Shown here: piece by piece, positions 13,816-63,549 of the stretch
Position numbering within the stretch: the first letter of the stretch is position 1
How the letters are laid out: the number at the start of each line of letters is the position of its first letter
Source of the DNA: a virus
IMG/VR virus record: IMGVR_UViG_3300042923_000281
Coordinates: 186,001-250,000 of that record
Reading direction: 5' to 3' (one strand)
DNA: 64,000 nt
Position numbers and translations under genes: made by a program
The notes under the pieces: model-generated
Databases searched by the model: none
What the model was told of the DNA's origin: nothing
Seen by the model: only the letters and a program-made list of their open reading frames with translations

Positions 13816-15540
13816 ATGACAGCCGTTAAGAAAGCTCCTCTCTTCAACAAAGAGGATGTGTTAGGTCTTGAGTGCAAACACGCGATCTATACCGAACATC
13901 AGCTCAATGACACCGATGACCTCCTGACCGTGAAGGAGTTGGTGTGGCTGAAGGATGGTACTCGTGTGCCGCGACTTCGGTTCTACCCTAACCGCATGCG
14001 CCCCTTTGGCATCACAAAAGAAAAATACCGTAACCACAAGGACAAAAAAGAAGTAGAGGACCTCGATAAGCTGATCCTCTGTGAGACCACCCAGCGTGAC
14101 CTCAACAACCAGATCGTACGACGCATGGGCTATGGCAACCCACGTCAGCAGTTACGCACCTTATGCCGTAACCAGTACATCTACGGGGCAGACATTGCTC
14201 CAGCCACTCTGCTGAAACGCCAGTACCAAGAGAAGTGGCCCGGTCTGTTCCATGCCAACCAAGTCGCCGTACTCGATACCGAGACCGACATGTGGAACGG
14301 TGACGGTAAGGACATCATCATCTCGACGGTGACGTTCAAGAACAAAGCGATCGTGACTATCCTCGACACTTGGATCGAGGGGATACCGGACGCAGTCAAC
14401 CAGATCCGTGATGCACTGAACACGTACTTGGGTCACTTGGTCAAACCACGGGGCATTGAGTTCGAGATCAAGATCATGAAGTCCGCCGGGGCCATGGTCA
14501 AAGAGTGTGTCGACAAGTGCCATGAGTGGATGCCGGATTTCGTGTCCTTCTGGAACATGGACTTCGACATGACGGTAATGATCCGTGCTCTGGAGAACGA
14601 GGGTTACAACCTCGCTGAAGTCTTCAGTGCTCCGGAAGTGCCGAAAGAGTACAAGTACTTCAAGTACAAGCGTGGTCCTGATCAGAAGGTCAAGGCTGAC
14701 GGCAAGTCGGAGAACTTGGCATGGTACGACCGCTGGCACACCGTCACCACTCCGTCCAGTCACTTCTGGATCGACAGTGCGGCTGTGTACCGGAACATCC
14801 GTCGGGCGAAGGGTAAGGAGCCGAGTTACGCTCTCGACAAGATCTTGAAGAAGAACTTGGGTGAGGACTTCGGTAAGCTGTACTTCCCAACTGGTGATTC
14901 CTCTGCTCACCCTGGTAGTGTCGAATGGCACATGCAGATGCAGAAGAGCTTCAAGATCCCGTACGTCGTGTATAACGTGTATGACTGCTTGGGCGTAGAG
15001 CTGCTGGATGAGAAGGTGACTGACCTGAACACCCAGATCGGTATCTTGTCTGGGTCGTCGGAATACAGCATCTTCAACTCCAACCCGAAACGTAACGTCA
15101 ACGACTTCTACTTTGACATGCTCAAAGAAGGGATGATGACGGGCACGTTGTCGGACCGCATGGAAGACGAACTGGATCGTCTGCTGCTCGGTAAGGAAGA
15201 TTGGATCGTCACGCTGCCAACGAGTCTGGTGGAAGCGAACGGCGTGTACATGATCAAGGACTTGCCAACCGTGCGTTCATTCGTACGTCGGTACACGTCT
15301 GACGCCGACATCGGGTCTACGTATCCGAACGGCGAGATCATCATGAACCTGTCGAAGATGACGACGATGTACGAGGTCTGTCGGATTGCAGGGGTGACAG
15401 CCAGCAAGCAACGACTGGTGGGGATCAACCTTACAGGCGGCCCAGTGAACTCAATCGAGATCATGACCGATGTGATGAAGGCTCCCGATCCATTCGAATT
15501 GCTGGAAGCGTTCGAAGAAGAACTCAAGCAAGCTGCGTAA
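13816..15540 (+). CDS. Family B DNA polymerase, N-terminal half: 3'-5' exonuclease plus motif A
   Basis: 574 residues, AGGATAG ribosome site. Exo I is D154-T-E156, Exo II is WNMDFDMTVM (N247, D251) and Exo III is YNVYD (Y386, D390), the three acidic motifs of DnaQ-type proofreading domains. Near the C-terminus D498-I-G-S-T-Y-P504 matches polymerase motif A (DxxSLYP). The protein ends soon after, without motifs B and C; these are in the gene at 61258-63549 on the other strand. I infer that the two chains assemble into one replicative polymerase. An alternative, an independent nuclease, is unlikely because motif A is intact. Confidence 0.85.
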   Translation: MTAVKKAPLFNKEDVLGLECKHAIYTEHQLNDTDDLLTVKELVWLKDGTRVPRLRFYPNRMRPFGITKEKYRNHKDKKEVEDLDKLILCETTQRDLNNQIVRRMGYGNPRQQLRTLCRNQYIYGADIAPATLLKRQYQEKWPGLFHANQVAVLDTETDMWNGDGKDIIISTVTFKNKAIVTILDTWIEGIPDAVNQIRDALNTYLGHLVKPRGIEFEIKIMKSAGAMVKECVDKCHEWMPDFVSFWNMDFDMTVMIRALENEGYNLAEVFSAPEVPKEYKYFKYKRGPDQKVKADGKSENLAWYDRWHTVTTPSSHFWIDSAAVYRNIRRAKGKEPSYALDKILKKNLGEDFGKLYFPTGDSSAHPGSVEWHMQMQKSFKIPYVVYNVYDCLGVELLDEKVTDLNTQIGILSGSSEYSIFNSNPKRNVNDFYFDMLKEGMMTGTLSDRMEDELDRLLLGKEDWIVTLPTSLVEANGVYMIKDLPTVRSFVRRYTSDADIGSTYPNGEIIMNLSKMTTMYEVCRIAGVTASKQRLVGINLTGGPVNSIEIMTDVMKAPDPFELLEAFEEELKQAA

Positions 15541-15558
15541 ACAAAGAAAAAAATAAAG

Positions 15559-15579
15559 CCCGGGCCTTCTTGGCCTGGG
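15559..15579 (+). terminator. Terminator of the polymerase exonuclease gene
   Basis: An 8-bp stem (cccgggcc/ggcctggg, one G-U pair) with a TTCTT loop, followed by TTCTATTT and preceded by the A-rich box acaaagaaaa seen before other plus-strand terminators here. Confidence 0.7.
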
Positions 15580-15600
15580 TTCTATTTCGTGTGCCCGTAA

Positions 15601-15867
15601 TCAGGGCTTTGGTTCCTCCTTCTTGATGATGTTGATTTCGACATGCTGGTGGATCTCTTTACCCTCATGTACGGCGTAGGCTGTTACTCCTGAATGAACC
15701 ACCCATGCAAACGCTAGTGCAATCATTCCGTATCCAAACCACTTCATTTCACCAACCTCTACGTTGATTAGTTTAAGGTCTTTGAACTTGAACCACTTAT
15801 CTAATCTATTTGTTACCCAGTTTAACGCTTTCTTCATACTGCCTCTCTTATTGTTGTTTACATTCAT
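15601..15867 (-). CDS. Small single-pass membrane protein, unknown
   Basis: 88 residues; GGAGG ribosome site before the ATG at 15867. A basic amphipathic N-terminus is followed by one membrane helix (about 43-64, WFGYGMIALAFAWVVHSG) and a charged tail ending KKEEPKP. It has its own promoter-like box 26 nt upstream. Function unknown; small early membrane proteins of phages often modify the host envelope or block superinfection, which is only a possibility here. Confidence 0.7.
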   Translation of the reverse strand: MNVNNNKRGSMKKALNWVTNRLDKWFKFKDLKLINVEVGEMKWFGYGMIALAFAWVVHSGVTAYAVHEGKEIHQHVEINIIKKEEPKP

Positions 15868-15892
15868 TTGGTCCTCCGTGTGGCCCTTATTA

Positions 15893-15900
15893 ATAGTGTA
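15893..15900 (-). promoter_or_regulatory. Promoter-like box (TACACTAT variant)
   Basis: Minus-strand TACACTAT, 6-7 of 8 matches to the recurrent TACATTAT box, 26 nt upstream of the gene starting at 15867. Confidence 0.4.
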
Positions 15901-15949
15901 ACATATCCCCGTTACATGTCAATGACCGTTCGTCGGCTTTGACGGGGTG

Positions 15950-15974
15950 ACTGGGGAGAACCGCTCTCCCCAGT
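15950..15974 (-). terminator. Stem-loop after 15987-16256
   Basis: A 9-bp perfect stem (actggggag/ctccccagt) 13 nt beyond the stop; no strong T-run. Confidence 0.5.
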
Positions 15975-15986
15975 GCACAGGTTTAC

Positions 15987-16256
15987 TTATGGATACAACG
16001 CAACGCAGAACGGTCCGGGATAGAACAGGCAACGACCTGCTGCAACCAGCATGATCAATCCAACGAACATCATGCCCAGACAGAACAGCTCAAGGCGATG
16101 AAACCATTTGGATGCATGTTTCCCGGTGCGTCTGCCCCAGTCGTCCTTCTCGATGGACTTGATGAACAACTCAGTCTTGATGCCGACGGCACCCAGACCA
16201 ATGATGAACAGCAAAGACAGTCCAATGAACCACATCCCGAATGCTGAGACACTCAC
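15987..16256 (-). CDS. Small two-pass membrane protein, unknown
   Basis: 89 residues starting with GTG at 16256, 5 nt after GGAGGAG. Two membrane segments (about 8-26 and 56-75) flank a basic loop (KSIEKDDWGRRTGKHASKWF). It follows a second two-pass protein of the same size, and both have a tryptophan- and arginine-rich loop, so they may be distant paralogues. Confidence 0.7.
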   Translation of the reverse strand: MSVSAFGMWFIGLSLLFIIGLGAVGIKTELFIKSIEKDDWGRRTGKHASKWFHRLELFCLGMMFVGLIMLVAAGRCLFYPGPFCVALYP

Positions 16257-16268
16257 TACTTCTCCTCC

Positions 16269-16541
16269 TTACTCAATGAAAAGACTATAACAGATCTGGT
16301 CAGGCCAGAAGATGCACTTGAATATATAAAGCGTCAGGAAGAACCCCACGAGCAACGTCTTCGTGAAGAACTTCTGTCGCTTATACATCCACTTGGGTGC
16401 GTATCTACGATTGTAGCCACTACCCCATGCACGCCACCAGATGCACAGGTTGAGCCAAAAGAGTATCACAGCACTCCCGAGGAACAAGCCTAATGCAATA
16501 CCGGCATACCAGAAACCCTGAGTGGATATGACCAGAGTCAT
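16269..16541 (-). CDS. Small two-pass membrane protein, unknown
   Basis: 90 residues; start overlaps the preceding stop as ATGA (16538-16541) with GGAG just upstream. Two hydrophobic segments (about 10-33 and 62-80) enclose a basic loop (RRYAPKWMYKRQKFF). Same size and topology as the next gene, suggesting a duplicated pair acting in the host inner membrane. Confidence 0.7.
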   Translation of the reverse strand: MTLVISTQGFWYAGIALGLFLGSAVILFWLNLCIWWRAWGSGYNRRYAPKWMYKRQKFFTKTLLVGFFLTLYIFKCIFWPDQICYSLFIE

Positions 16542-16858
16542 TTGAACTCCCGGCGTTGCCTCTTTTCATGGCGCAGACGTTCCACATTGGGACGCCGTGC
16601 ATTCTTGAGAGACCGTTTGAGCTTGCGCACCTTGTTCTTCGCAGCGAGCGACATGCTGTTGAACTTGCGACGCAGGCGAATATCGCGTGGCAGTTGAGGC
16701 TTCGGCATCTCGAAGGACGGGGTGTCACCATCGTAGTCTGCCTGAGGAGACCGGAGAGGCCTCTGGAAGATGTCCGATTCAATATCCCGAGGGAATGGTT
16801 TACCCGATTCTTCTTTCAGCCGCATGGCCCCGACGAGTAGATCGTTGTCCTTGCTCAT
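16538..16858 (-). CDS. Small basic protein, unknown
   Basis: 106 residues. The N-terminal half is acidic to neutral, while the C-terminal ~45 residues are very basic (NKVRKLKRSLKNARRPNVER), which suggests nucleic-acid binding. The start overlaps the upstream stop as ATGA (16855-16858) and its own stop overlaps the next start, so four genes in a row are translationally linked. Confidence 0.7.
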   Translation of the reverse strand: MSKDNDLLVGAMRLKEESGKPFPRDIESDIFQRPLRSPQADYDGDTPSFEMPKPQLPRDIRLRRKFNSMSLAAKNKVRKLKRSLKNARRPNVERLRHEKRQRREFK

Positions 16859-18063
16859 TCCTTGTCTTCCTTCTTGTCTTCGTCACCAATGAACTTCTCA
16901 ATGGTGTCGTTGACTTCCCTGGGCAGTTCTGGATCAAGGAAGACGGTGTGGACAGGTTCGCCACGACCCATCCCTGGACGGTACATGCGAGCAACAGCAA
17001 TGGAGTCGACCGAGTGATCTTCCATTGTTGCCAGATGAGTACGGCGCGACAACCAACGGCCATCATTGTCCTTAGTCACCGTGCACTGTGCCGTCAGAGA
17101 CTCTTTACCGAGTGCCCGAGCCCACGCAGCCAGCCGACGTTTGTAGGCCACCTTGACCCGCAACGAAGCATTGTTGTACTGGCGGCGATTGTGTACCGGA
17201 TCGGTGGTCAACTTCATCTGGTCTTCAGAACACGCCACCAATCGTCCCCGGTATTCGGACGTGAGGAATGGGGTGCTGCGAAGTCGATGCAGTTGGGACA
17301 TGCCTTGAAGTGAGTCTTTCAGAGCGGTCGGGTTCTGCAACAGAGCCTTGCTTGCCGAACGAGACTCCAGTCCATCCGCAATGAACTTGTCCAGCACGCT
17401 GGTATCGCCGAGGAAGTGCAGGGCATACAGCTCAGCATCGCTTTCATCACCCTTTATTGGGGGAGAGACGATGATACCCCGAGAGGCAAACGGCTGAGCG
17501 TGTTCCAACTTGCGACGAGCGATCATCGGCGTGGAACCTGTCACAATGACAGGCACAGTCGGGCTGTCCATCCCTATATCCAGTGCCTTCTGAACGGCTT
17601 CTGGAGAGATGTCGATAAGACCACCGCTTTCAGTCATCCCATCTTTCAAGGCCGCTGCCATCGCACGGATAACGTTACCTTGCTGGGAAGGTTTACGCAT
17701 GTAGTCCTCGATGCTCGGTACAGGACGTTCCAGCATCGGATCGTCTTGGAACGGGTTGGTCGAACCTACATACTGGCAAGGAATGTCATCGACCATGACC
17801 AGATGTTCCTCGTCATAGCAGAGGTAGACCTTCAGCCAACTGGTGCCAATCCAGGACCCTTCAATGCGGGTCTCGATTTCACCGTAGGTCATGCGTGCCC
17901 AGTTGTAACCAACACGATCCATGGCCACGTACAGGTACTCACAGTGCAGGTCCTTCGAAGACTCCAGTACGGCAGCCGATTGTGCGATCACCGAGAACTT
18001 GACCCCTCGTGGCAGGATCAAGCGGAAGTTAGTGATGTGTTTCTTCAGTTCTTCGCGATTCAT
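16855..18063 (-). CDS. Unknown protein, first gene of a coupled operon
   Basis: 402 residues from the ATG at 18063 (MNREELKK), with GGGA 8 nt upstream; an ATG at 18072 is also possible, while the longer frame would run through the terminator at 18093-18112 and is rejected. No domain recognised. The C-terminus is acidic and lysine-rich (GDEDKKEDKE). It is the first of four genes joined by ATGA overlaps. Confidence 0.7.
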   Translation of the reverse strand: MNREELKKHITNFRLILPRGVKFSVIAQSAAVLESSKDLHCEYLYVAMDRVGYNWARMTYGEIETRIEGSWIGTSWLKVYLCYDEEHLVMVDDIPCQYVGSTNPFQDDPMLERPVPSIEDYMRKPSQQGNVIRAMAAALKDGMTESGGLIDISPEAVQKALDIGMDSPTVPVIVTGSTPMIARRKLEHAQPFASRGIIVSPPIKGDESDAELYALHFLGDTSVLDKFIADGLESRSASKALLQNPTALKDSLQGMSQLHRLRSTPFLTSEYRGRLVACSEDQMKLTTDPVHNRRQYNNASLRVKVAYKRRLAAWARALGKESLTAQCTVTKDNDGRWLSRRTHLATMEDHSVDSIAVARMYRPGMGRGEPVHTVFLDPELPREVNDTIEKFIGDEDKKEDKE

Positions 18064-18092
18064 GATGTACATCCCATGGTGAGAAAATAAAA

Positions 18093-18112
18093 GAGAGGGC
18101 CGAAGCCCTCTC
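18093..18112 (-). terminator. UUCG-loop terminator after 18126-18491
   Basis: Minus strand GAGAGGGC-TTCG-GCCCTCTC followed by TTTTATTTTC. Confidence 0.85.
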
Positions 18113-18125
18113 CTATTTACGTGTG

Positions 18126-18491
18126 TTAGAAATTCAGGCCAATAGCACCTGCGCCCTTGGTGGTGAACCAACGCTGCTTGACACCGTAGATGTCCAACAT
18201 GGTCGGGCCAACATTCAGCACGTCACAGGTGGCTTCGATAAGATCCATCACGTGGATCTCAGGATCGAGGATCTCGATCTTGCCAAAGCCAGTATCCGTT
18301 TGCTTCGCCCGGCAGACCACACGGCCATACTGATCGAAACGCACTTCCCCGTCTTCCTTCGAATACTCGATATGGAAGTACTGCCCCATCGTGTCGCAGC
18401 CAGTATCATCAATGATGTTAGCAGCAGCGAGTTGTTCCAGACGTTCGATGAACTTCTGGTTCAGTTGACGAGCGGAGAGTTGTTGAGTCAT
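18126..18491 (-). CDS. Unknown small protein
   Basis: 121 residues with an AAAGGA ribosome site 8 nt before the ATG. No domain recognised. It lies 61 nt after the stop of the gene at 18553 and ends in a strong UUCG-loop terminator. Confidence 0.7.
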   Translation of the reverse strand: MTQQLSARQLNQKFIERLEQLAAANIIDDTGCDTMGQYFHIEYSKEDGEVRFDQYGRVVCRAKQTDTGFGKIEILDPEIHVMDLIEATCDVLNVGPTMLDIYGVKQRWFTTKGAGAIGLNF

Positions 18492-18552
18492 TGTTGCATT
18501 CCTTTACTTGGTTAGTGTTGTTTCTTATAGTTGGGGAAGAGGTCCCCATACC

Positions 18553-19341
18553 TTATTCGCCTTCCAGTTCTTTCCGAACGCCTTCCAGAGTCAAGCCTGG
18601 CATGCATTCCCCTTCAGCAAACTCTTCAGGGCCCGTTTCATCGTTACGCTCAACCTTGCCCACTTGCCCCAGGTTGATGAGATCCCGGTATTGATCTTCT
18701 TCGAAGTGAACATCAAAACCGAGGAAGTCGATCTCACATCCACCGCTGCCGACGTAGCCAGTAGCGACCTGATGATCGAACGCGTTGGTCCAGTAGATCT
18801 CACGATCACCGAACGCATGGTCACGCAGCTCATCACGAGTAGCCGTGGAGAGCAGATTGACCGCATCATCGTAGGTGAACTCAGCGCGAGGCCAAGTGGT
18901 CGCTTCGATGTCAGCCGGATCGACGTCGAGGTAGAAGTGATCGAGGCCGTGAGACTTCTCCTTCTGCTCGCTGCGATCGTAGACTGCCAAGATACGGGAC
19001 TTGGCTTCCACTGTCACTACGTCACCTGTCTGAGTCGTCAACAGACGGCACAGGCGATCCACGTCCGCATTGTTCGTAGGCCAGATGCGGAACTTGCTTT
19101 CAACAGTGTCGCCCACGATGATCAACAGATCGAAGTTGGCTTCACCATCGAACTTGCCCATGGCCAACGACTCGAGACGGAAGGTCTCGATGACGTCACC
19201 GTAGTTGGTGATGTCGGTCACGAACTTGAAACCGGACTCAGTTTCAATGGTACGGATGCGACCGTAGTCCACTTCCAGATCGTCAGTGGTGACGATCACG
19301 CAGTCACGGCCATTCTCGTAGAACTCGTGTTGGGTATTCAT
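18553..19341 (-). CDS. Unknown acidic protein
   Basis: 262 residues, strongly acidic (many D and E), AAGGAG ribosome site. No motif recognised. A TACATGAT promoter-like box lies 58 nt upstream, and the gene is the first of a short operon with 18126-18491. Confidence 0.7.
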   Translation of the reverse strand: MNTQHEFYENGRDCVIVTTDDLEVDYGRIRTIETESGFKFVTDITNYGDVIETFRLESLAMGKFDGEANFDLLIIVGDTVESKFRIWPTNNADVDRLCRLLTTQTGDVVTVEAKSRILAVYDRSEQKEKSHGLDHFYLDVDPADIEATTWPRAEFTYDDAVNLLSTATRDELRDHAFGDREIYWTNAFDHQVATGYVGSGGCEIDFLGFDVHFEEDQYRDLINLGQVGKVERNDETGPEEFAEGECMPGLTLEGVRKELEGE

Positions 19342-19398
19342 GCTGACTCCTTAAATCTTGGTTAGTTGCTAGGTCGACTGTTCTCCCTAGTCACCGCT

Positions 19399-19406
19399 AT
19401 CATGTA
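19399..19406 (-). promoter_or_regulatory. Promoter-like box (TACATGAT)
   Basis: Minus-strand TACATGAT in the context ACAATACATGATAG, 58 nt upstream of the start at 19341; one mismatch to the recurrent TACATTAT box. Confidence 0.5.
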
Positions 19407-19439
19407 TTGTTTCAAATCTTTCGAATCAACAAAAGAAAA

Positions 19440-19457
19440 GGAGGGGTGCACCCCTCC
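19440..19457 (-). terminator. Terminator after 19463-19939
   Basis: Self-complementary ggaggggtgcacccctcc followed on the minus strand by TTTTCTTTTG, 5 nt beyond the stop. Confidence 0.8.
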
Positions 19458-19462
19458 TCCAT

Positions 19463-19939
19463 TCACTCTACCCGCAGTAGGACGTTGTCTTCGAACGTGT
19501 GCCACAGATGAAGGCTCTTATGTTCCATCATGGCAGCATGCATCGCAGGGATGTCCAGAGCGTCGTACGTCGAGGCATACGTGGCTAAGGCATGCACGAC
19601 ACTGTTTGATCCACCAATCGACTCCATGCGGTCCTGAGAGGCTTGTGAGATCTCTTTGAAGTCCAAGTAGTCACCCACGACATTGATAGTCTGCGGGATT
19701 TCGTTGTTGACATACTTGCTTGTCAGATGACGCAGGGCGATCGCCGCCAGCATGAGACGCTGCCGCCCGACAAACATACCGGACTGCCGCCCGATCTTCT
19801 CCAATGCTCGCGTAGGGACGTGCTGAAGGCCACCGTGCTGTTGACACAGCTCCATGTACTTCATCGCTGCTCGCTTACCACTGAAGTAGCCGTTGAAGTA
19901 GCCCTTCACGTAGCCGAAGTAATAACCGATTGATTTCAT
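19463..19939 (-). CDS. Unknown protein with a glycine/aromatic N-terminus
   Basis: 158 residues. The N-terminus has a repetitive Y-F-G pattern (IGYYFGYVKGYFNGYFSGK), which may be an amphipathic or interfacial element. The rest is helical with no known motif. It starts 1 nt after the stop of the gene at 19941, so the two are co-translated. Confidence 0.7.
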   Translation of the reverse strand: MKSIGYYFGYVKGYFNGYFSGKRAAMKYMELCQQHGGLQHVPTRALEKIGRQSGMFVGRQRLMLAAIALRHLTSKYVNNEIPQTINVVGDYLDFKEISQASQDRMESIGGSNSVVHALATYASTYDALDIPAMHAAMMEHKSLHLWHTFEDNVLLRVE

Positions 19940-19940
19940 G

Positions 19941-20420
19941 TCATTGTCCGTAGTAGTAATGGAAGGCGTCTGGGATGTCCGACGTGAAGATGTCTGGCGG
20001 AGCCGCAGTCAACTTGAACGTCATGAGGACTTCGCCCTCGGCGTAGGTGGTCGTCTCGTTAATACGAGTCTCACGTTTGAAGACACACTTGTCACCGTTG
20101 AAGCGGACATAACCGAAGTACGAGTTCTGCCCGTACAGTTGCTTGTTCTGCAACGTGCTACGCTTCGACCCCAATGGTGCCTCACCTGACACGACAATCA
20201 CGGTGACATCGCGACGTGCACCGATCTTGACGATGTAGTAGCAACGACCGAGCTGCTTGAGCATGGCCGGATGGATCTTCAGCTGGGTGTTGAGCTTACG
20301 GTTGACTGCATTGAGTATCTGAGAGCGTTTGGTGGTCGCTTCTTTTCGAGTGACCTTAGGTTTGGGCAGTAGTTTGCGCAAACGGGCAGCGTCGATGTCG
20401 TTTCTCAATTCAGGATGCAT
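19941..20420 (-). CDS. Unknown basic protein
   Basis: 159 residues; GGAAG ribosome site before the ATG at 20420. A lysine/arginine-rich N-terminal ~45 residues precede a beta-rich region (KRETRINETTTYAEGEVLMT). No family recognised. A weak box (ACCATTAT on the minus strand) lies about 24-31 nt upstream, preceded by a UUCG-loop terminator. Confidence 0.7.
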   Translation of the reverse strand: MHPELRNDIDAARLRKLLPKPKVTRKEATTKRSQILNAVNRKLNTQLKIHPAMLKQLGRCYYIVKIGARRDVTVIVVSGEAPLGSKRSTLQNKQLYGQNSYFGYVRFNGDKCVFKRETRINETTTYAEGEVLMTFKLTAAPPDIFTSDIPDAFHYYYGQ

Positions 20421-20464
20421 GGTGTACTTCCAATGGTCAGGTTATAATGGTGGACGGCATAAAT

Positions 20465-20480
20465 GGAGGCCGAAGCCTCC
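20465..20480 (-). terminator. UUCG-loop terminator after 20484-20867
   Basis: Minus strand GGAGGC-TTCG-GCCTCC then ATTTATG, 4 nt beyond the stop. Confidence 0.7.
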
Positions 20481-20483
20481 TAG

Positions 20484-20867
20484 TTATGCACGAAACTCTG
20501 TGGCAGACATTGTTGGTGCATCCACAATCTGTTCGATGACATCGTATCGTCCTCGGTGGAGGAGTAACGCGATCATCGACAGCTTGCCCTTATCGCCCGG
20601 CGTTTGTGCCTGTAGCGAAGAACCGAATCGACTGATGACTCTTTCCATGAGAGAAGCGTACTTCTTCTCAATGATGGTCACCTTCATCGACTCGATCAGG
20701 GCAAGTAGTGGGATCTGTGCTTCGTCCGCCTCTAATGTGCGGATCTTCTCTGTACCCAACTCCATCGCGTGGCTGAATGACTTCCCAATGCCCATGAACT
20801 GAGCCGTTAGGTCAGCATTGTCATCGAAAGCCCCACGGAATGAAGGATGAAACAGGTAGTAATGCAT
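20484..20867 (-). CDS. Unknown small protein
   Basis: 127 residues, AGGAG ribosome site. Mostly helical with no recognised motif. It lies between the RNA array side gene at 21105 and a terminator, and belongs to the run of short accessory-type genes. Confidence 0.65.
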   Translation of the reverse strand: MHYYLFHPSFRGAFDDNADLTAQFMGIGKSFSHAMELGTEKIRTLEADEAQIPLLALIESMKVTIIEKKYASLMERVISRFGSSLQAQTPGDKGKLSMIALLLHRGRYDVIEQIVDAPTMSATEFRA

Positions 20868-21104
20868 GTAGCGCTCCTAGTGTGTGCTGCTTCCCCAAGC
20901 AACGTGGTGCGGCATAACTGCCCGCCTGCCTTGAAAGACAAACGGGCAGCTAGAGGCTTTGTCGGTCACTGTTCGACCGAGTCACATGTCGCGGCTGGCA
21001 TGAGCCAGATCGTACAACAGTCCATCCGGGTAACACTCAGGCATCTACTCAGACGGACCTCGAGTAGAGACTGCTCACTGGGTGTGCACCCCCATGAGAT
21101 GTGT
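20868..21104. other. 237-nt gap with stem-loops
   Basis: No convincing gene. Two stems are visible: ctgcccg/cgggcag (20918-20924 and 20943-20949) and tcggtc/gaccga nearby. They may terminate the gene at 21105 or continue the RNA array to the right. Confidence 0.4.
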
Positions 21105-21350
21105 TCAGTTGCAGTTCATCGGAATGGGCGGGTTGAACACTTCAGTGGCCACGTATCGGCTACTGACGTTACCCAGTCCATCTTCCCGAAGAACTACGAT
21201 ACCTTTGGAGCGGAGCAAATACGGCAGCGGTCCCATGTACAAATCCTCCAGTGGAGGACAGTACCCTTCCATCTCACCGTGAAACTCCATGAGAGGAGGG
21301 GGTGGGCCTGCTTCTAAGCGCCGTCTACGGGCGCCTTTTCGATTGCACAT
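21105..21350 (-). CDS. Small basic/proline-rich protein, unknown
   Basis: 81 residues from the ATG at 21350, with GGAG 7 nt upstream; a TTG 6 nt earlier is less likely. The N-terminus is arginine-rich (CNRKGARRRRLEAGPPPP), then several proline/tyrosine turns. It lies directly downstream of the RNA array and may be transcribed with it. Confidence 0.55.
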   Translation of the reverse strand: MCNRKGARRRRLEAGPPPPLMEFHGEMEGYCPPLEDLYMGPLPYLLRSKGIVVLREDGLGNVSSRYVATEVFNPPIPMNCN

Positions 21351-21372
21351 GCTCAAACTCCTGTATAAAAGA

Positions 21373-21486
21373 CAGTGAAGCCGTTCTCCTCTCGTGTCCG
21401 GGACTTTTCCCTCATCCTGAGGACTATGCTCCCTGTTCGCCTTACGAGGGTTACTTAGAGCTCGGCTAACGAGTACAGCTTCACTG
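21373..21486 (-). ncRNA. Structured RNA candidate E (114 nt)
   Basis: Closed by a 9-bp perfect stem, cagtgaagc/gcttcactg. Inside, minus-strand hairpins CTCG-TTAGC-CGAG and GGGA-AAAG-TCCC within GTCC/GGAC are visible. No ORF of note and no tRNA T-arm. It abuts element F. Strand is inferred from the tRNAs. Confidence 0.45.
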
Positions 21487-21537: not shown

Positions 21538-21562
21538 GCGCAGGAATGCCACTGATTGAAAA

Positions 21563-21677
21563 GGGTCGTCCTGGGGAGACTCAAACTCCCGACCGCTGCC
21601 ACGTTGTTAGGCCCAAGTCCCTCGGAAGGGAGTATGGGCCTGAAAAGGCAGTGCTCTATCAACTGAGCTACAGGACC
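21563..21677 (-). tRNA. tRNA-Glu(TTC)-like gene with ~39-nt insertion in the anticodon loop
   Basis: Acceptor GGTCCTG/CAGGACG (6 of 7 pairs, G1-G72 mismatch), D-arm GCTC-AGTTGATA-GAGC, anticodon stem CTGCC/GGCAG, variable loop CGGTC and T-arm GGGAG-TTTGAGT-CTCCC are all in place. The anticodon loop is 46 nt instead of 7: TTTTCA, then a hairpin (GGCCCA/TGGGCC enclosing TCCC/GGGA), then AACAACGT. If the insertion follows position 37 the anticodon is TTC. The 3' end reads ACCC rather than CCA. It may be a decayed tRNA, an intron-bearing tRNA or a tRNA mimic. Confidence 0.6.
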
Positions 21678-21681
21678 GAAA

Positions 21682-21757
21682 TGGCTCCACGACCTGGACT
21701 CGAACCAGGGACACTACGGTTAACAGCCGTATGCTCTACCAACTGAGCTATCGCGGA
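21682..21757 (-). tRNA. tRNA-Asn(GTT)
   Basis: 76 nt with encoded CCA. Acceptor TCCGCGA/TCGTGGA, D-arm GCTC/GAGC, anticodon loop CTGTTAA between TACGG/CCGTA, T-arm CCTGG-TTCGAGT-CCAGG. Fully canonical. Confidence 0.95.
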
Positions 21758-21761
21758 ATGT

Positions 21762-21858
21762 GCTCACTGCTGGGCTATACCCAGATCCCCTGCGCTGCCA
21801 ATCCCATTCGCTTCGCCTTGAAGGGGCTTGCGGGATCGGCTGCCAATGGGCAGTGAGC
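21762..21858 (-). ncRNA. Structured RNA candidate A (97 nt)
   Basis: Closed by a 9-bp perfect stem gctcactgc/gcagtgagc. On the minus strand, CCGATCCC/GGGATTGG (8 bp with one G-U) and TGGG-TATAG-CCCA form further arms, and ATTGGCAGC occurs twice. It lies 4 nt from tRNA-Asn and 9 nt from element B, so it occupies a position in the array as a tRNA would. No T-arm or anticodon arm can be drawn. Confidence 0.5.
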
Positions 21859-21867
21859 GGTTTATCA

Positions 21868-21982
21868 ACATCTTCAAGTAGATTTCACCGTACCGTCGGC
21901 TGTGATGTTACTTTCTACTTGCCTACCTTTCGGCTGATTCCCTGCATCCAGGCTCACGCTTTAACTGGATACTTGAAGATGT
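21868..21982 (-). ncRNA. Structured RNA candidate B (115 nt)
   Basis: Closed by a 13-bp perfect stem acatcttcaagta/tacttgaagatgt. Internal arms on the minus strand include TCCAG/CTGGA and GCC/GGC. It lies 7 nt from tRNA-Gln. No tRNA arms and no ORF. A 13-bp perfect match across 89 nt is very unlikely by chance. Confidence 0.55.
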
Positions 21983-21989
21983 CGACAAC

Positions 21990-22068
21990 TGGAAGGGGCA
22001 TCTGGATTCGAACCAGAGAATGACAGGATCAAAACCTGTTGCCTTAGGCCAGACTTGGCTACACCCCT
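21990..22068 (-). tRNA. tRNA-Gln(TTG)
   Basis: 79 nt with encoded CCA. Acceptor AGGGGTG/TGCCCCT, extended D-arm, anticodon loop TTTTGAT between ACAGG/CCTGT, T-arm TCTGG-TTCGAAT-CCAGA. Confidence 0.93.
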
Positions 22069-22108
22069 AAATGCTTGGGACGTCACTCCCGTGTTGCAAT
22101 GTAGCGTT

Positions 22109-22297
22109 GAACGCTTCCCCTTATGTTCCGTTCTCTCTGAGGCGGGACTCGAACCCGCAACGGACATGAGCTCTGATGCCCTAGGGCCGCACTCATTCCA
22201 CACCAACGGACAGGCAGCCACAATGGACTTAGGGTTGTTGGACCGAAGCCCTCACCCTCGGGTATACCAATTCCCCCACTCGTGAGAGGAAGCGTTC
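22109..22297 (-). ncRNA. tRNA-Leu(GAG)-like RNA D inside a long closing stem (189 nt)
   Basis: Closed by a 10-bp perfect stem (ggaagcgttc/gaacgcttcc). Within it (22132-22288) a class II tRNA can be traced: D-arm GGGGAATTGGTATACC, anticodon stem CGAGG/CTTCG around GTGAGGG (anticodon GAG, Leu) and T-arm GCGGG-TTCGAGT-CCCGC. The variable region is ~85 nt instead of ~15 and holds its own hairpins (CCAACAA/TTGTGG, ATGAG/CTCAT); the acceptor is irregular (CTCTC/GAGAG and GAG/CTC with a bulge). No CCA is encoded. Confidence 0.5.
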
Positions 22298-22302
22298 GAA
22301 CA

Positions 22303-22379
22303 TGGCGGCTCCAAGGGGACTTGAACCCCTGACCCCCGGCGTGACAGGCCGGTGCTCTAACCAGCTGAGCTATGGAACC
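22303..22379 (-). tRNA. tRNA-Asp(GTC)
   Basis: 77 nt with encoded CCA. Acceptor GGTTCCA/TGGAGCC, D-arm GCTC/GAGC, anticodon loop CTGTCAC between CCGGC/GCCGG, T-arm AGGGG-TTCAAGT-CCCCT. Confidence 0.95.
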
Positions 22380-22386
22380 TAGAAGA

Positions 22387-22474
22387 TGGTGGAGAGAGAA
22401 GGATTCGAACCTTCGAAGTGCGGTCGCACGTCAGATTTACAGTCTGATCCCTTTGACCACTCGGGAACCTCTCC
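22387..22474 (-). tRNA. tRNA-Tyr(GTA)
   Basis: 88 nt, class II, CCA encoded. Acceptor GGAGAGG with its 3' strand, anticodon loop CTGTAAA between CAGA/TCTG, long variable arm, T-arm GAAGG-TTCGAAT-CCTTC. Confidence 0.95.
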
Positions 22475-22483
22475 TAATAGGGT

Positions 22484-55416: not shown

Positions 55417-55426
55417 GGTGGTCTCC

Positions 55427-56890: not shown

Positions 56891-56932
56891 TGACCTCCCC
56901 TAGTGCCCGGTGAAAATAAAAAGGCATAACAA

Positions 56933-56952
56933 GGGGGAGCACAGGCTCCCCC
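56933..56952 (-). terminator. Terminator after chimallin
   Basis: An 8-bp stem gggggagc/gctccccc with loop acag, followed by TTGTTATGCCTTTTTATTTT on the minus strand; sits between chimallin and the polymerase gene. Confidence 0.8.
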
Positions 56953-56968
56953 AAGCTATGAACGTCAG

Positions 56969-58882
56969 TTAGAAGCTATTGCCGAAGCCAAAGCCGTTAC
57001 CAACGCTACCACGCAGCGAACGTGCGCCATCACCAGTCACGCGGCGGCTCGAGAGCATGCCGTGAGTGAGGTCACCACCGACGAAGTCACGGATGCGAGT
57101 GTTACCACGCAGGCGACGGTTGCCGAAGGTGTAGTGAGCCGAACGCTGGTCGATGTTGATTTTGCAATCAGCAACGGCCATGGCCAGCGCTTCGATGAAC
57201 TGCGGGTTGACGAACGCCAGGTCTACGTAACGAGCGAACTTGACGTTGCTCGCACCGAGAGCGCTGGTCAGTTGGTCGTACTGCTCGCTGACGCGGATTT
57301 CAACGTCCAGGTCAACGCGGTCGATCACGTCCTGATAACGCAGGGCAGACTCGCCTTCGTCATTCGGGTTGGTGGCCATCCAGCGCAGCAGGTCCCATTC
57401 ACGCAGATCGCGCTCGTTGCCCTTCTCGTCGATCCAGGTGCCAGTCAGGTAACGAGCACCGGACATTTGCAGCGGGGTTTCGACGCCCAGTTCACGGGCA
57501 CGGCGGGTGAAGTTGCCGTTGGTCAGACGGTCGGCGTAGTCGTACAGACGGCCGATGGCGTCCTTGTTGGCGCTGTCGTCAGTTGCAGCGTCGGACAGCA
57601 GGGAGGTGATCCAGCTGTTGTCGCCGCCTTCTTCGAGCTCGATAGCCCAGGCCAGGTTGTCGTCAACCAGGCTGAAGAAGTACTGAGCCCACTTGTGGGT
57701 GTCCAGCGACGCACGGTTGTCGAACTCGACCGGAGTCTTGTCCTGATCCGGGCCGAGGATGTTCAGCAGACCAGCGTCACGGTGGTCGATCTCACCACGA
57801 GCAACATCGCCCGGCAGGTAAGTCTGAGCCCACGCTTGGTCTTTGGAGATGACCGACGCACCAGCCAGAGCCAGCAACAGCAGCTCAGGGGTGATGCCGT
57901 TGGCGTTGGTGTCCATGCGGTTGATCACGTACATCGGAGTGAAGTACGGCTGATCACGGCGCTGGGTACGGGACCAACGATCTTGTTCGACCGGCGGGGT
58001 GTACATGATGCTGACGTAACCGCCCAGGTTGGCCAGGCCAACAGGGATGTTCTGGTCGCCTTTGCGCACGATGCCGGCAACGGTAACGGCCAGGTCGGAA
58101 CGACGCGGCAGACCGTCGGCGGTCATGACTTCACGGCCAGACAGGTCGACGTTGATTTCCAGAGTCGACTGCTTGCTCAGCCAGTCCAGCGAGAAGAACA
58201 GGTCAGGCTGGAACAGGTTGCTGTAGATCGCTGCCAGAGCGGCCTGGGCGTAGAACACGACCTGACGCACTTCGGTGTTTTCCGGATCGTTGAAGTCAAC
58301 CTTGTGGCTCACTACACGCCAGCCGGCACGCACGATTTCAACGCTACGGCGCTGGCCTTCGAACGCCTTCTTCGCGATTTCGTCAACCAGAGCCAGGTAG
58401 CTCTCGGTGATGTAGTCGGAAGCGATGATCGGCAGCGGGTAGGTGCGGTGGTTGATCTCGACGTTACGCACGGTGGCGTCGTCGGTCATGCTCGAGGACA
58501 GAGCCAGGGCGGAAACCAGAACCTTGACGGTGCCGTTGTCTTCGACCGGGTATGCCAGGATCACAGAGCTGATGCTCACGTTGTGCTCGGAAGCTTCCAG
58601 ACCCAGAACTTGGATCTTGGAGAGGTCGATCAGGCCGGCGCCTGCAACCTGACGCTCTGGATCGAACCAGTGCTTAACCGACTTAACAGCGTTGACCAGA
58701 ACTTCGCCGCTGATGCGACGGGACATCGGTGCGCCGAGCAGGCGGTTGATGTCCAGCAGACCGGCGGTGGTCGCTTGGGATTCACGAGCCGGGCGCTCAG
58801 CACGCTGCTCTTGGCGCGGAGCTTCGCGGGAGGTACGCTCGTTGCTCGAAGCGGAGTTGTCGATGTCGTCTTGTACAGCCAT
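56969..58882 (-). CDS. chmA: Chimallin, phage nucleus shell protein
   Basis: 637 residues, AAGGAG ribosome site. Length, a charged disordered N-terminal ~35 residues, the long two-domain body and a flexible C-terminus ending GNGFGFGNSF agree with chimallins (phiKZ gp54, 201phi2-1 gp105), whose tails join neighbouring tetramers in the shell. It is followed by the polymerase beta-prime N gene in the same order as in phiKZ. The protein forms the lattice that separates phage DNA from cytoplasmic nucleases. A TACATTAT box with flanking inverted repeat and a 72-nt leader precede it, consistent with strong early expression. Confidence 0.85.
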   Translation of the reverse strand: MAVQDDIDNSASSNERTSREAPRQEQRAERPARESQATTAGLLDINRLLGAPMSRRISGEVLVNAVKSVKHWFDPERQVAGAGLIDLSKIQVLGLEASEHNVSISSVILAYPVEDNGTVKVLVSALALSSSMTDDATVRNVEINHRTYPLPIIASDYITESYLALVDEIAKKAFEGQRRSVEIVRAGWRVVSHKVDFNDPENTEVRQVVFYAQAALAAIYSNLFQPDLFFSLDWLSKQSTLEINVDLSGREVMTADGLPRRSDLAVTVAGIVRKGDQNIPVGLANLGGYVSIMYTPPVEQDRWSRTQRRDQPYFTPMYVINRMDTNANGITPELLLLALAGASVISKDQAWAQTYLPGDVARGEIDHRDAGLLNILGPDQDKTPVEFDNRASLDTHKWAQYFFSLVDDNLAWAIELEEGGDNSWITSLLSDAATDDSANKDAIGRLYDYADRLTNGNFTRRARELGVETPLQMSGARYLTGTWIDEKGNERDLREWDLLRWMATNPNDEGESALRYQDVIDRVDLDVEIRVSEQYDQLTSALGASNVKFARYVDLAFVNPQFIEALAMAVADCKINIDQRSAHYTFGNRRLRGNTRIRDFVGGDLTHGMLSSRRVTGDGARSLRGSVGNGFGFGNSF

Positions 58883-58920
58883 GGTGTGACTCCTTGGTAT
58901 ATAACGTTACTAGGCCTAGT

Positions 58921-58977
58921 GAACTTCGAAGCTTGGCTTCTGTATTCATGTTTATAATGTAGCACCGTACGAAGTTC
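58921..58977. repeat. Inverted repeat flanking the chmA promoter box
   Basis: gaacttcg at 58921-58928 and cgaagttc at 58970-58977, 8 bp perfect, on either side of the box at 58954-58961. It could be an operator or a transcript hairpin. Confidence 0.4.
58954..58961 (-). promoter_or_regulatory. Promoter-like box TACATTAT (chmA)
   Basis: Context GGTGCTACATTATAAACA, 72 nt upstream of the chimallin start. Confidence 0.65.
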
Positions 58978-59209
58978 GAATGGAATCCGCGCAGAGAGCC
59001 TCATTATGATTCGGCCAGGGGGTTTAAATTTACGTGCGATCTTTCCAGGAAAAGGAAATACCCTCCTCTTGTACTGGGCTGTTAACCCAGTCGGAGCAGA
59101 TCTCCTATAGCATATGCACTCTCAGGTTATTTTTTACGATTCCACTCGCACCACCTCGGTAAGAAGATCCGGCTATCCTTTGAGACTTACCCGCCAATGG
59201 ACCATCGCC

Positions 59210-60349
59210 ATGTACCAACTGTTCAACACCGAGTCCAGGATCAAACAGACCAACATCGCTACGTTTGGCCTGGACTACGTTAAGCGCGAACTGATGAACG
59301 TACAGGTGAACCGCTATAAACAGCTTCGGGCTTTGAACCCGGGGTACCTGAAGAGCGACCACCTGCTACAGAAGATCCTGGGCATGATCGACATCCCTTT
59401 CGATGGCGACCTACCCGACTACTATCTCCGTGTCTCCAGCATCGTCGACCGGCTTGCTGGTCAGATGGGCTTTTGCACCGCCGGCCACCACGGGCGGGTC
59501 AGGAACCACAGCCACTTCTACGGCAAAGGGGTGAATGAAGTCATCATCGCGATTGCAGACGATGAAGTCACTCCGGCCCAGATCTGGTTTAACTGGCGGA
59601 ATATGAGCCCTGTGAGGGTACTCTCACATCCTATCATGGGATGTGGTATTATTGAACTGGATGGGACCAACGACATCAAGGGATTGCCTTACGGCGCCAC
59701 CGCGGTGATCGAGATCAACATCCCGTTGCTGGCTTGTCAGTATCACTTGTGGCGGGTGGCTGTACGTGGCTTAGCTCCAGAGGGCTTTGCCTTCCCAGTC
59801 AGTCACTTCCTCACCCAGATCGTCATCCCCAACCTCCTCCCCAGTCACTTGGACGTGGCGGTGGGCAATACCCTGCACTCCTTGATTGGCGGACAAGGTT
59901 ACGTGAAGGTTGAGAGTGACATGCCGTTCTACACGGCTGACTTGTACCCTCGGTTGGAGAAAGGCCTGCAAGAGCTCGCTACACGCTTCTGCAACCAGAC
60001 CCTCTACTACCGTGACATCTTGTCCAACGTGCCTGTCTTTGGCAACGACACGCTGCTCCAGACGGTACGGATGCCCGACATCGCCTACACCAACCAAGCA
60101 ATCTGGGCCTTGACCATGGCCAGGCTCCCGGTGGTAGCGATGCTGCTGAAGTTCGACCAGTTGGCCAAGAACGTCAAGAACGACGCTGACCGGAACCGGA
60201 TTCGTCGTAGCCTCAGTGAAGCAGACAGTGGTAAGTACCTGACGAACCAGATCCCTTCCGATGTTGCAGCAGGGATTGCGAACTTCATTGCTACTAATGT
60301 CACGCCGTTACTGAACAGCTCGCCCCAAGCAGCAGAACAAACCCTGTAA
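59210..60349 (+). CDS. Unknown protein divergent from chimallin
   Basis: 379 residues from the ATG at 59210 (MYQLFNTES). The frame is open to 59114, but the extra 32 residues look unlike the rest and neither start has a good ribosome site, so the start is uncertain. No motif recognised; a central MGFCTAGHHGRVRNHSHF patch is histidine-rich. It ends in a shared palindrome terminator. Its position beside chimallin suggests an early or middle role. Confidence 0.65.
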   Translation: MYQLFNTESRIKQTNIATFGLDYVKRELMNVQVNRYKQLRALNPGYLKSDHLLQKILGMIDIPFDGDLPDYYLRVSSIVDRLAGQMGFCTAGHHGRVRNHSHFYGKGVNEVIIAIADDEVTPAQIWFNWRNMSPVRVLSHPIMGCGIIELDGTNDIKGLPYGATAVIEINIPLLACQYHLWRVAVRGLAPEGFAFPVSHFLTQIVIPNLLPSHLDVAVGNTLHSLIGGQGYVKVESDMPFYTADLYPRLEKGLQELATRFCNQTLYYRDILSNVPVFGNDTLLQTVRMPDIAYTNQAIWALTMARLPVVAMLLKFDQLAKNVKNDADRNRIRRSLSEADSGKYLTNQIPSDVAAGIANFIATNVTPLLNSSPQAAEQTL

Positions 60350-60350
60350 A

Positions 60351-60380
60351 CATAGAGAGGAGCCTAGGCTCCTCTCTATG
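60351..60380. terminator. Bidirectional terminator
   Basis: A perfect 30-nt palindrome (catagagaggagcct and its complement) between the stops at 60349 and 60386. Confidence 0.75.
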
Positions 60381-60385
60381 CCGTG

Positions 60386-60964
60386 TCAGTCAAACAAACG
60401 ATCAATGGAAAGGCTGGTCATGATGGGCAATGAAGCAATGTGCACACTCCGAGGTTGTACGAAAGCCTCAGGCATGGGCAGCAGCCCTGGGATCACCCGA
60501 CGAATCACGGTACCATCAGGCAGAACGCGGGTGAGTGGTTCAGACTCACGTTCCTTGGCCCATTGCTCCGCCTGTAAGCGCGCCTGAGCCTGCCGGACAG
60601 CTTTGTCCACCACACGTTGCGCTTGGGCCTCAGGAGCCATCATACCGGCTTGGAAGAGCGCCTGTAGAGGAGTCTCGTAGACGGTACCGCTGCGGTGGGT
60701 GAAGTCCTGCTTGAACGTTACGTCATCACGGAAGGTCACCATCCCATGAGGCCAGACGATCAACCAATGCCCGCCTTCTGGCTTGAAGAGTGCCATCATC
60801 TCAGGGTCGATCTGATGACGCTCTTTTGGGTTGAAGCCGTACGCCATGTACGACGGTTCATCGCCGAACATCCAATCCGTACGGTCAACCCGCTGGATCT
60901 GGAACGCATGCACCTTAGACCACGGTGTGATTCTAAGGGTTGAGACGGTCTCGTTGGGCTTCAT
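60386..60964 (-). CDS. Unknown protein
   Basis: 192 residues, GAGGAG ribosome site. A long glutamine/alanine-rich helix (AQAQRVVDKAVRQAQARLQA) occupies the middle. It overlaps the upstream gene by 32 nt, so they are co-translated. No motif. Confidence 0.65.
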   Translation of the reverse strand: MKPNETVSTLRITPWSKVHAFQIQRVDRTDWMFGDEPSYMAYGFNPKERHQIDPEMMALFKPEGGHWLIVWPHGMVTFRDDVTFKQDFTHRSGTVYETPLQALFQAGMMAPEAQAQRVVDKAVRQAQARLQAEQWAKERESEPLTRVLPDGTVIRRVIPGLLPMPEAFVQPRSVHIASLPIMTSLSIDRLFD

Positions 60965-61283
60965 CGGCGCTCCTCAAAGCTCTTAGGGTTTCAGTCAGCA
61001 ACTTAGCCACCGGGACACTCAAGCCCGTGTGGCGACGGATCGCTGTCTCTGCCAGTACGTACACCGATACACCGCTGATAACAGACTGCGTGACAGCCAC
61101 ATCCATCAGTTCAGCGAATACTTCAGCCACACACCGAGGTTTGAACGGCTCGGCAATGAGGGCTGAGGTGACGCAGTGTGCGCTGTAGTCGCCGGTGAGA
61201 TCGCCCCAAGTGGTCAACAATTGGGGCTTTCTCTCAGGGAACTTGAGGATCTTGCACTCAGTCGGCAAGCCAGTCCTCTCCAT
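60933..61283 (-). CDS. Unknown small protein overlapping the polymerase gene end
   Basis: 116 residues from the ATG at 61283 (MERTGLPTE), preceded by GAAGAAG; an ATG one codon earlier is equally possible. The longer frame lies inside the polymerase gene and is rejected. It overlaps the polymerase stop by 26 nt. No motif recognised. Confidence 0.6.
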   Translation of the reverse strand: MERTGLPTECKILKFPERKPQLLTTWGDLTGDYSAHCVTSALIAEPFKPRCVAEVFAELMDVAVTQSVISGVSVYVLAETAIRRHTGLSVPVAKLLTETLRALRSADEAQRDRLNP

Positions 61284-63549
61284 CATCTTCTTCGTACTCC
61301 TCATCGTCATCCTCGTCGATCTTGAGGATGATACTGTTTGCGTCTGTTGGGTCAGGTTGCAGGTTGACTTCGCCACGTGGGGTGTAGATGTCGCTGATCA
61401 AGCGGACGTACTTGCTGTCCACTTGGAAGATCCCCAGCGTCTCGAGGATCATGTAGAAGGACTCCAGGATCTCGTAGGTGAGACGACGGACGTCGATCAT
61501 GGCCATGACCTCGTCTGGCATCCCGATGCCCGAGAGGATCGACAGAGGCAGCATGAGCGTGCCCATCTTGTCCTTGCCAGCCCGTTGGCAGTACTCGCGC
61601 AGACGTTCACCCATGTCCTTGTCCGTCTTGTCCACGTGAGCCATCCAGTCCTGCATGTCGGTCTTGTTATTGATCGCCAGCGGAACCTTAATCACGGAGA
61701 AGGGTGGGCTTTCTACATGGCCGTACTTCGGTGCAAAGACGTGCTCCCAGAAGTGATAGTGACGGTAGTTCGTCTTCTCACGGAACGGGTCTTCCTTGTT
61801 CATGTTCGGGTACGATTCCTGAACCTGTGCAGACTTCAGGTAACGGTGTTCCCCGGACTTGATCGAGGTGTAGATGTCTTGCTCCAAACGCCACACCAGC
61901 AGGTACAGCTCTTCCAACGTGAACTGACGGTTCTCATCCGCGCGGGTCATGACTTCCTTCATGAACGCCTTGGCCTGCTTGATGATTGCTACCGGTACAG
62001 TGGAGGAACGCAGGGCTACGCCTTTGATCTCCATCTCGTAGTCACGGTACACACGGCCTTCACGAGCACTCATGAACGCGTAGTAGTGCTTCGCCCGGCT
62101 GGTCAAGGTAAAGACTGGGAAGGCGTACTCGTTCTTCATGGTCAGACGGTGCAGGTCTTCCTGAATCACCCCCATGTTTGCCGAGAGCTTCGCCAGTACG
62201 TGCACGATACATTGGCAAGCCACGTACGTCGTGGTGTACCAGATCCCGTCACCTTCACGGCTACGCACGTCACTGCCGGTGTACCACGTTACCCACTCTT
62301 GGGTGGTGAAGATCGTGGAGTCGGTGTCAGACGCCAGTACCACACGGCGCAAGATGCCCTTGACGTTTGCCACGGTTGGAGCCAACAGCACAGGCGTGAG
62401 GAACACACGGATGAACTGGAAGTAGTCCTGCAAGGTGTTCTGGATGTTCGCTGAGCTCTTGGCAACCAAGGCCAGCTCTGCGGTCATCCCTTTCTCCTTC
62501 ATGGAGTCAAAGTCTTCACCACGGGTGATGTCAGCGTTGAGGTACGTGGCCAACATCTTGGTGTCGTCATCGAACTTCTTGCTGCGCAGCATCTCGAAAC
62601 CGTCTTCCACTTCCATGGAGTCGTTACGAGGCTCGTGCTTGATGATGCGGTCCATGAACCCACGGACAAACCCATCGTTCAGCTGAGCAATGTGGTACAG
62701 GTCGCCCGTGTACATCACAATGGCCCGTTCCAGCGGGGTCAGCTTCTCAAGCAGATCAACGATCTTCTGGAAGTTAGCCTCGTTGCGCCAGTACAGGTCG
62801 GTCGAACGCTTGATGCACGCTGCGGCTTGCTCGGTGGTTGGGTACACGAAGCCGCAGTTGTCCATGGCCTGACGGAACTCCTCGTGCGGTTGGCTCTTCA
62901 CCAGCGCGAGGATATTCGCTATCGTTATCTTGGGGGACCAATAGTGTCTTGATCCCGCCAAGAGCTTCTCGTTACTGGCGTTACCGTAACCGGTGGCCGA
63001 ACGGCACATGGAGGTCAGGCTGGAGTGGCCCGATTTGACGTACAGGATGTTGCCGGTGAAGCCGTGCATGCCAGACAGCGAGTTAATCGCGATCTTCTTG
63101 GCGTTCTGCTCGGCGTCCTTGATCTTCTCAAGGGTCTCGTCCCCTGCTACCTGAGCAAGGAACATCTCGTTCTTGGCTTTCTTACGACCTGCGATACCCG
63201 ATTCAACGAACTTGGCCGAAGGGGACTTCAACACCTTCGGGTTCTCGTAGCACACCATCGATGGACTGATGATGCGGTTGCTCTCGGTCACCGTCTTGAC
63301 GTAGCTGAGCAGGGTCATTTCAGTCTTGACCCGGTTGCCCGGTGATTCTTGTTTCAGGACCAGCATGTTCGGATCACGAAGCGGGTACTTCCCACCTCGG
63401 GAGAGTGTACGCTTCAGGAAAGCCAAGCATTTGTCTTCTGGCTGACCGGTCATCCGATGCAGGTAATGGGTATTCTGTTCGAAGTACCCCTTTAGCAGAT
63501 CGAGGTCACGGACATAGGCTTCCTTCGGAAGTACAAACGGATTTTCCAT
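61258..63549 (-). CDS. Family B DNA polymerase, C-terminal half: fingers, palm motif C, thumb
   Basis: 763 residues from the ATG at 63549, with AAGGG 9 nt upstream; the ATG at 63600 lies inside a terminator stem and is rejected. KKIAINSLSGMHG (K152, N156, S157) is motif B (K-x3-N-S-x-Y-G), LASDTDST (D408, D410) is motif C, and AKHYYAF then KGVALRSSTVP match the K-x-Y and R-S-S-T-P segments of RB69-type thumbs. There is no exonuclease and no motif A, both of which are in the gene at 13816. The tail is very acidic (DEDDDEEYEEDDGED). Confidence 0.87.
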   Translation of the reverse strand: MENPFVLPKEAYVRDLDLLKGYFEQNTHYLHRMTGQPEDKCLAFLKRTLSRGGKYPLRDPNMLVLKQESPGNRVKTEMTLLSYVKTVTESNRIISPSMVCYENPKVLKSPSAKFVESGIAGRKKAKNEMFLAQVAGDETLEKIKDAEQNAKKIAINSLSGMHGFTGNILYVKSGHSSLTSMCRSATGYGNASNEKLLAGSRHYWSPKITIANILALVKSQPHEEFRQAMDNCGFVYPTTEQAAACIKRSTDLYWRNEANFQKIVDLLEKLTPLERAIVMYTGDLYHIAQLNDGFVRGFMDRIIKHEPRNDSMEVEDGFEMLRSKKFDDDTKMLATYLNADITRGEDFDSMKEKGMTAELALVAKSSANIQNTLQDYFQFIRVFLTPVLLAPTVANVKGILRRVVLASDTDSTIFTTQEWVTWYTGSDVRSREGDGIWYTTTYVACQCIVHVLAKLSANMGVIQEDLHRLTMKNEYAFPVFTLTSRAKHYYAFMSAREGRVYRDYEMEIKGVALRSSTVPVAIIKQAKAFMKEVMTRADENRQFTLEELYLLVWRLEQDIYTSIKSGEHRYLKSAQVQESYPNMNKEDPFREKTNYRHYHFWEHVFAPKYGHVESPPFSVIKVPLAINNKTDMQDWMAHVDKTDKDMGERLREYCQRAGKDKMGTLMLPLSILSGIGMPDEVMAMIDVRRLTYEILESFYMILETLGIFQVDSKYVRLISDIYTPRGEVNLQPDPTDANSIILKIDEDDDEEYEEDDGEDWLAD

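Follow-up and report, generated by a model that had tools for sequence, protein, structure and literature searches.

Two genes in the window analysed here, a 64,000-nucleotide stretch corresponding to bases 186001-250000 of the 276,978 bp IMG/VR virus record IMGVR_UViG_3300042923_000281, very probably encode the two chains of a family B DNA polymerase (PolB) of the phiKZ lineage that assembles in trans as a heterodimer and was split once in an ancestor. The first product, P0001 (the exo half; 574 amino acids, 13816-15540, plus strand), comprises an N-terminal domain, a 3'-5' exonuclease domain and the motif A-bearing first segment of the palm, and the second, P0002 (the pol half; 763 amino acids, 61258-63549, minus strand), comprises the fingers, motif B, motif C, the remaining palm and the thumb. 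The intergenic distance is 45.7 kb. A sequence-only reading of this DNA had proposed that a polymerase is broken inside the palm between motifs A and B, with Exo I-III and motif A in one gene, motifs B and C and thumb segments in a second gene some 46 kb away on the opposite strand, and the catalytic aspartates D498 and D408/D410 consequently on separate chains. The motif assignments, the residue numbering, the position of the break and the coordinates all hold, with one small correction to the second gene, in that its open reading frame (ORF) itself opens at 63600. Among the matches listed, Pseudomonas phage pPa_SNUABM_DT01 is the closest named relative, with identities of 86% for the exo half and 81% for the pol half, and the other relatives among these matches are about 30-41% identical.

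P0001 has no match in a Pfam family search but belongs to PHROG 3011 'DNA polymerase' (E = 1.1e-199), and its homologues include phiKZ gp082, PhiPA3 gp085, EL gp051 and RAY gp285. Each chain was folded alone, and comparison of the P0001 model with solved chains superposes it on residues 1-428 of RB69 gp43 (Z 27.7, root mean square deviation 3.5, 361 residues aligned). Direct sequence searches of both proteins against the PDB returned chance-level matches alone, among them one between sigma70 and the acidic tail of P0002, so the assignment is carried by the structural comparison and by a homologue in Bacillus phage PBS1. The PBS1 exo half aligns with RB69 gp43 106-434, across motif A (E = 9.2e-14), and motif A in P0001 is thus supported directly by sequence; a profile of the Gram-negative exo halves places the motif A stretch in the same register, at -2.4 bits and without significance. 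Conservation was assessed in alignments of 52 exo-half and 51 pol-half sequences, which draw on 51 of 80 and 50 of 80 IMG/VR loci respectively, those that are intron-bearing, short or more than 90% identical having been dropped. Exo I (D154-x-E156; 14275-14283, plus strand), Exo III (Y386...D390; 14971-14985, plus strand) and motif A (D496, catalytic D498, Y503 and P504; 15301-15327, plus strand) are invariant in all 52 exo halves, and D251 of Exo II is invariant or nearly so. The names of the exonuclease and polymerase motifs are those that we take to be customary. Model residue 515 lies on RB69 428 in the structural alignment, and the same offset of 87 places D498 on the residue that is presumably RB69 D411. 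Residues 459-472, 492-513 and 515-518 of the lone model have a predicted local distance difference test (pLDDT) score below 50, as does most of motif A, and are at least as well conserved as the rest of the protein. This is suggestive, though not proof, of a strand that needs the sheet of a partner in order to fold. Separately, we note that in four loci (L021-L023 and L036) about 90-120 extra residues interrupt the match near exo-half residues 347-351; these look like an in-frame insertion, since the annotated PhiPA3 gene continues straight through them.

P0002 matches Pfam divDNApol (PF20286, E = 8e-222) and PHROG 2927 (E = 6.8e-223), and is homologous to phiKZ gp050, PhiPA3 gp047 and RAY gp220. 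Its lone-chain model superposes on RB69 gp43 447-892 (Z 13.6, root mean square deviation 5.9, 380 residues aligned). Motif B (K152...N156...G160; 63070-63096, minus strand) and motif C (D408-T409-D410; 62320-62328, minus strand) are invariant in 51 of 51 aligned pol halves, as are R122/K126 and K509. A helical insertion of about residues 201-390 (62380-62949, minus strand), modelled as helices, occupies the interval between motifs B and C, ahead of the motif C hairpin; Iyer et al. describe a helical insert as characteristic of this polymerase group (PMC7824862). The translation start is placed at 63549 and not at the opening of the ORF 17 codons upstream at 63600, because the ATG at 63600 sits within a conserved TATGAGC element whose spacing to the conserved start varies out of frame among the relatives. 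The pol half of phage AR9 has the same fingers region near the start of the protein (E = 0.0038 to an archaeal PolB). As a separate observation, in the IMG/VR records of loci L071 and L072 the motif B stretch of the pol-half profile finds a second, weak match (G055:197254-197361 and G056:81437-81550), in another open frame of 603-682 amino acids that is possibly an extra polymerase gene.

The RB69 gp43 matches of the two chains, 1-428 and 447-892, are complementary and do not overlap, and together with the placement of the motifs they locate the break inside the palm at RB69 428-447, between motif A and the fingers with motif B. The features expected of a family B DNA polymerase (the Exo motifs, motif A, motif B and a DTD motif C on a PolB fold) are all present, spread over two chains. 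Where RB69 has about 18 residues at this position, the window proteins have two longer segments, a C-terminal exo-half tail beyond the RB69-like part (residues 516-574; 15361-15537, plus strand) with three predicted helices, and an N-terminal pol-half extension (residues 1-83; 63301-63549, minus strand) that is confidently modelled and lies outside the RB69 match. These are possible docking or interface segments; at least 90% conservation is seen in 9 of the 59 columns of the tail and 9 of the 83 columns of the extension. In a Pfam profile search of the whole record no complete polymerase is found elsewhere: PF00136 and PF20286 match the pol half alone, and PF00476, PF07733 and PF03104 match nothing at E<=1. 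Nor is there a fused exo-pol ORF among 72 uninterrupted exo and 77 pol ORFs of the relatives, which in non-redundant sets are 548-654 amino acids (51 exo) and 706-781 amino acids (50 pol) in length.

The same split recurs throughout the lineage. Separate tblastn searches against 50,697 phage records give 286 records for the exo half and 289 for the pol half, of which 270 and 272 respectively have at least 80% coverage, and the counts of the two halves are equal for Pseudomonas (81), Erwinia (62), Salmonella (24), Vibrio (22), Serratia (21), Aeromonas (19) and Klebsiella (16). When the other half was sought in 99 IMG/VR records known for one of them, both were present in 79; the 20 without it are all shorter than 170 kb, and every one of the 68 records of at least 180 kb has both. 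PBS1 and AR9 have the same split. In the 79 paired records, which are not independent events since some are near-identical, the genes are on opposite strands in 69 and on the same strand in 10, and the distance along the shorter arc is 25.1-59.8 kb in all but one pair, where it is 123.3 kb. All 35 of the 69 opposite-strand pairs that were checked are convergent on the shorter arc, and Pseudomonas phage PA7 (phiKZ genus) has both halves on the same strand, separated by about 36 kb. The distance and the opposite strands, which had been singled out as noteworthy in this genome, are thus the standard layout of the lineage, and an explanation built on unusual spacing was rejected for this reason. 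The layout is shared by the paired records and would therefore be inherited genome architecture, mostly convergent; conserved gene blocks are reported for this phage family (PMC10299810).

The split of the phiKZ polymerase is already named in print: according to the SPN3US paper (PMC5105663), a 'split subunit DNA polymerase' was identified in phiKZ ten years after its genome. It is accordingly an ordinary trait here and not a local oddity. The divergent phiKZ-type PolB (gp082 with gp050; PHROG 3011 with PHROG 2927; PF20286) agrees with the window pair in families, in the break and in having far-apart genes, and differs by sequence divergence only; the window encodes both a pol half of PF20286 and PHROG 2927 with the long helical insert and, 45.7 kb away, a separate PHROG 3011 exo half. 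This, and not the T4-type split to which the pair was at first compared, is its proper counterpart. The gp43A/43B proteins of the T4-like Aeromonas phages 25 and 44RR likewise constitute a two-chain family B polymerase, and those of phage 25 co-purify and are active (PMC2988022), but they belong to another polymerase clade and their genes are neighbours with a homing endonuclease gene or intercistronic sequence in between, in contrast to the distant, oppositely oriented genes of the window. The Pol III alpha subunit (of DNA polymerase III) in group 2.2 jumbo phages is also a split catalytic subunit with distantly located genes (PMC7824862), although its catalytic fold is unrelated. We found no statement in the open-licence literature, in the portions covered, that places the break within the palm and assigns motif A to the exo chain.

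With the break inside the palm, a single polymerase active site requires residues from two independently expressed proteins. Probably a single break, falling between motif A and the fingers, split the gene before the Gram-negative (phiKZ-like) and Gram-positive (PBS1/AR9-like) phages separated. D498, on the first strand of the palm, would come from the exo chain together with the N-terminal and proofreading domains; the pol chain would contribute the thumb, fingers, motif B and remaining palm, with D408/D410 in the motif C hairpin. Made from distant genes, the two chains would be imported into the phage nucleus and dock there non-covalently to complete one palm, the metal-binding aspartates of both forming a single, catalytically active site. 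The window encodes chimallin, the nuclear shell protein (56969-58882, minus strand; PF25677, E = 1.3e-36; PHROG 4795 'nuclear shell protein', E = 1.9e-59), and this jumbo phage is thus of the nucleus-forming kind (phiKZ-like, Chimalliviridae). The question had been raised of whether both halves are imported; for the pol half this is supported by the finding that RAY gp220 fused to green fluorescent protein is located in the phage nucleus (PMC10299810), whereas the exo half, RAY gp285, has no occurrence in the main text of that paper. An antisense screen (Nature 2025; PMC12571901) lists phiKZ050 and phiKZ082 both as 'DNA polymerase' and reports a knockdown phenotype for each. The pair would provide a natural test of co-import and subunit balance in a nucleus-forming phage.

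Several points weigh against a two-chain enzyme assembled in this manner. The residues that flank the break, where an interface would be expected, are no better conserved than the remainder of the proteins, and the low pLDDT around motif A may equally stem from a shallow alignment of 52 rows. The structural match of the pol half is the weaker of the two, with a best Foldseek E-value of 2.1e-4, its modest Foldseek scores probably being due in part to the approximately 190 helical residues inserted between motifs B and C. In the antisense screen the plaque effect is unequal ('++' for 050 and '+' for 082), and knockdown of 082 induces the Pf4 prophage, from which the authors propose that 082 may have a role related to Pf4 (PMC12571901). 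The phiKZ co-fractionation paper (PMC10449902) names no phage polymerase complex in the sections covered, and nuclear localisation of an exo half was not found in the portions of the open-licence literature covered.

One alternative explanation of why the split persists is that it acts as a lock, neither chain having polymerase activity alone, each carrying an additional segment beside the break (exo 516-574 and pol 1-83), and the site being completed only where the chains meet inside the phage nucleus. The need for two separate imports would then prevent polymerase activity in the host cytoplasm. We regard this as unlikely. A second alternative, that the exo protein is a standalone proofreading exonuclease which loosely joins a self-sufficient polymerase and retains motif A as a structural relic, accords with the description by Iyer et al. 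of a polymerase without a fused exonuclease domain, the exonuclease being encoded elsewhere (PMC7824862). However, all 52 aligned exo halves retain D498, and the RB69 match of the pol half begins at 447, past motif A, such that the pol half appears to lack the motif A palm strand and its aspartate; this explanation is distinctly unlikely. Joining of the halves after translation by a split intein has been proposed for the PolB of phage MIJ3, also a jumbo-phage polymerase in pieces, but there the pieces are adjoining (orfs 153-155) and carry intein blocks (PMC6892783). No Pfam intein family matches P0001 or P0002 at E<=1, and both break ends are short and outside any intein-sized domain, so that a split intein is extremely improbable here. 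An assembly artefact, in which an intact or adjacent gene was mis-joined, has no supporting point and is already refuted by the relatives: hundreds of phages that were sequenced independently, isolates among them, have the same two genes at separate places, and 78 of 79 pairs lie at 25-60 kb. The feature is a genuine polymerase encoded as two chains, as opposed to a damaged gene.

The regions upstream of the two genes were compared for a shared promoter and none was seen, as their upstream elements differ. A CTCTAnTATGA element precedes the pol half (63597-63607, minus strand) and is kept with small changes in nine of nine aligned upstream regions among near relatives. It contains TATG, which is reported at phiKZ late promoters (PMC7598289), and is a putative promoter, judged from sequence. 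The region upstream of the exo half (13720-13765) has an inverted repeat of short length, CCAATC...GATTGG, and after it GCGTnnATTnTTAC, both being kept among near relatives in eight aligned regions; with up to one mismatch the latter sequence has three matches in the window against 0.42 expected. Because these elements differ, the exo and pol genes may belong to different transcription classes, which is offered as a lead only.

Group I introns recur in the exo gene of several relatives, where they interrupt it at motif A or next to it; no such intron is present in the exo gene of the window. Eight of the 80 exo loci are interrupted, two of which (L097 and L098) are identical to each other. Matches exceed the Rfam gathering score in PhiPA3, L020 (the same as L107), L115, L116, L122 and L123, with two intron matches each in L122 and L123, and fall below the gathering score of 50 in Goslar (44.7 bits), L097 (48.8 bits) and L087 (41.0 bits). 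Judged approximately by eye, Goslar, L087, L107, L115 and L116 carry the insertion between the first and second aspartates of motif A, and PhiPA3 and L097 carry it immediately after the second. The GenBank coding sequences of Goslar gp068 (L035:2977-4476) and PhiPA3 gp085 (L036:986-2812) end at the intron, and the annotated proteins thus lack the segment behind it, which in Goslar includes the catalytic aspartate. An exo protein that is annotated without its 3' exon, or that is called a mere exonuclease, has its catalytic aspartate hidden from view.

Among the other features of the window, we note a cluster of five transfer RNA genes at 21566-22474 on the minus strand.

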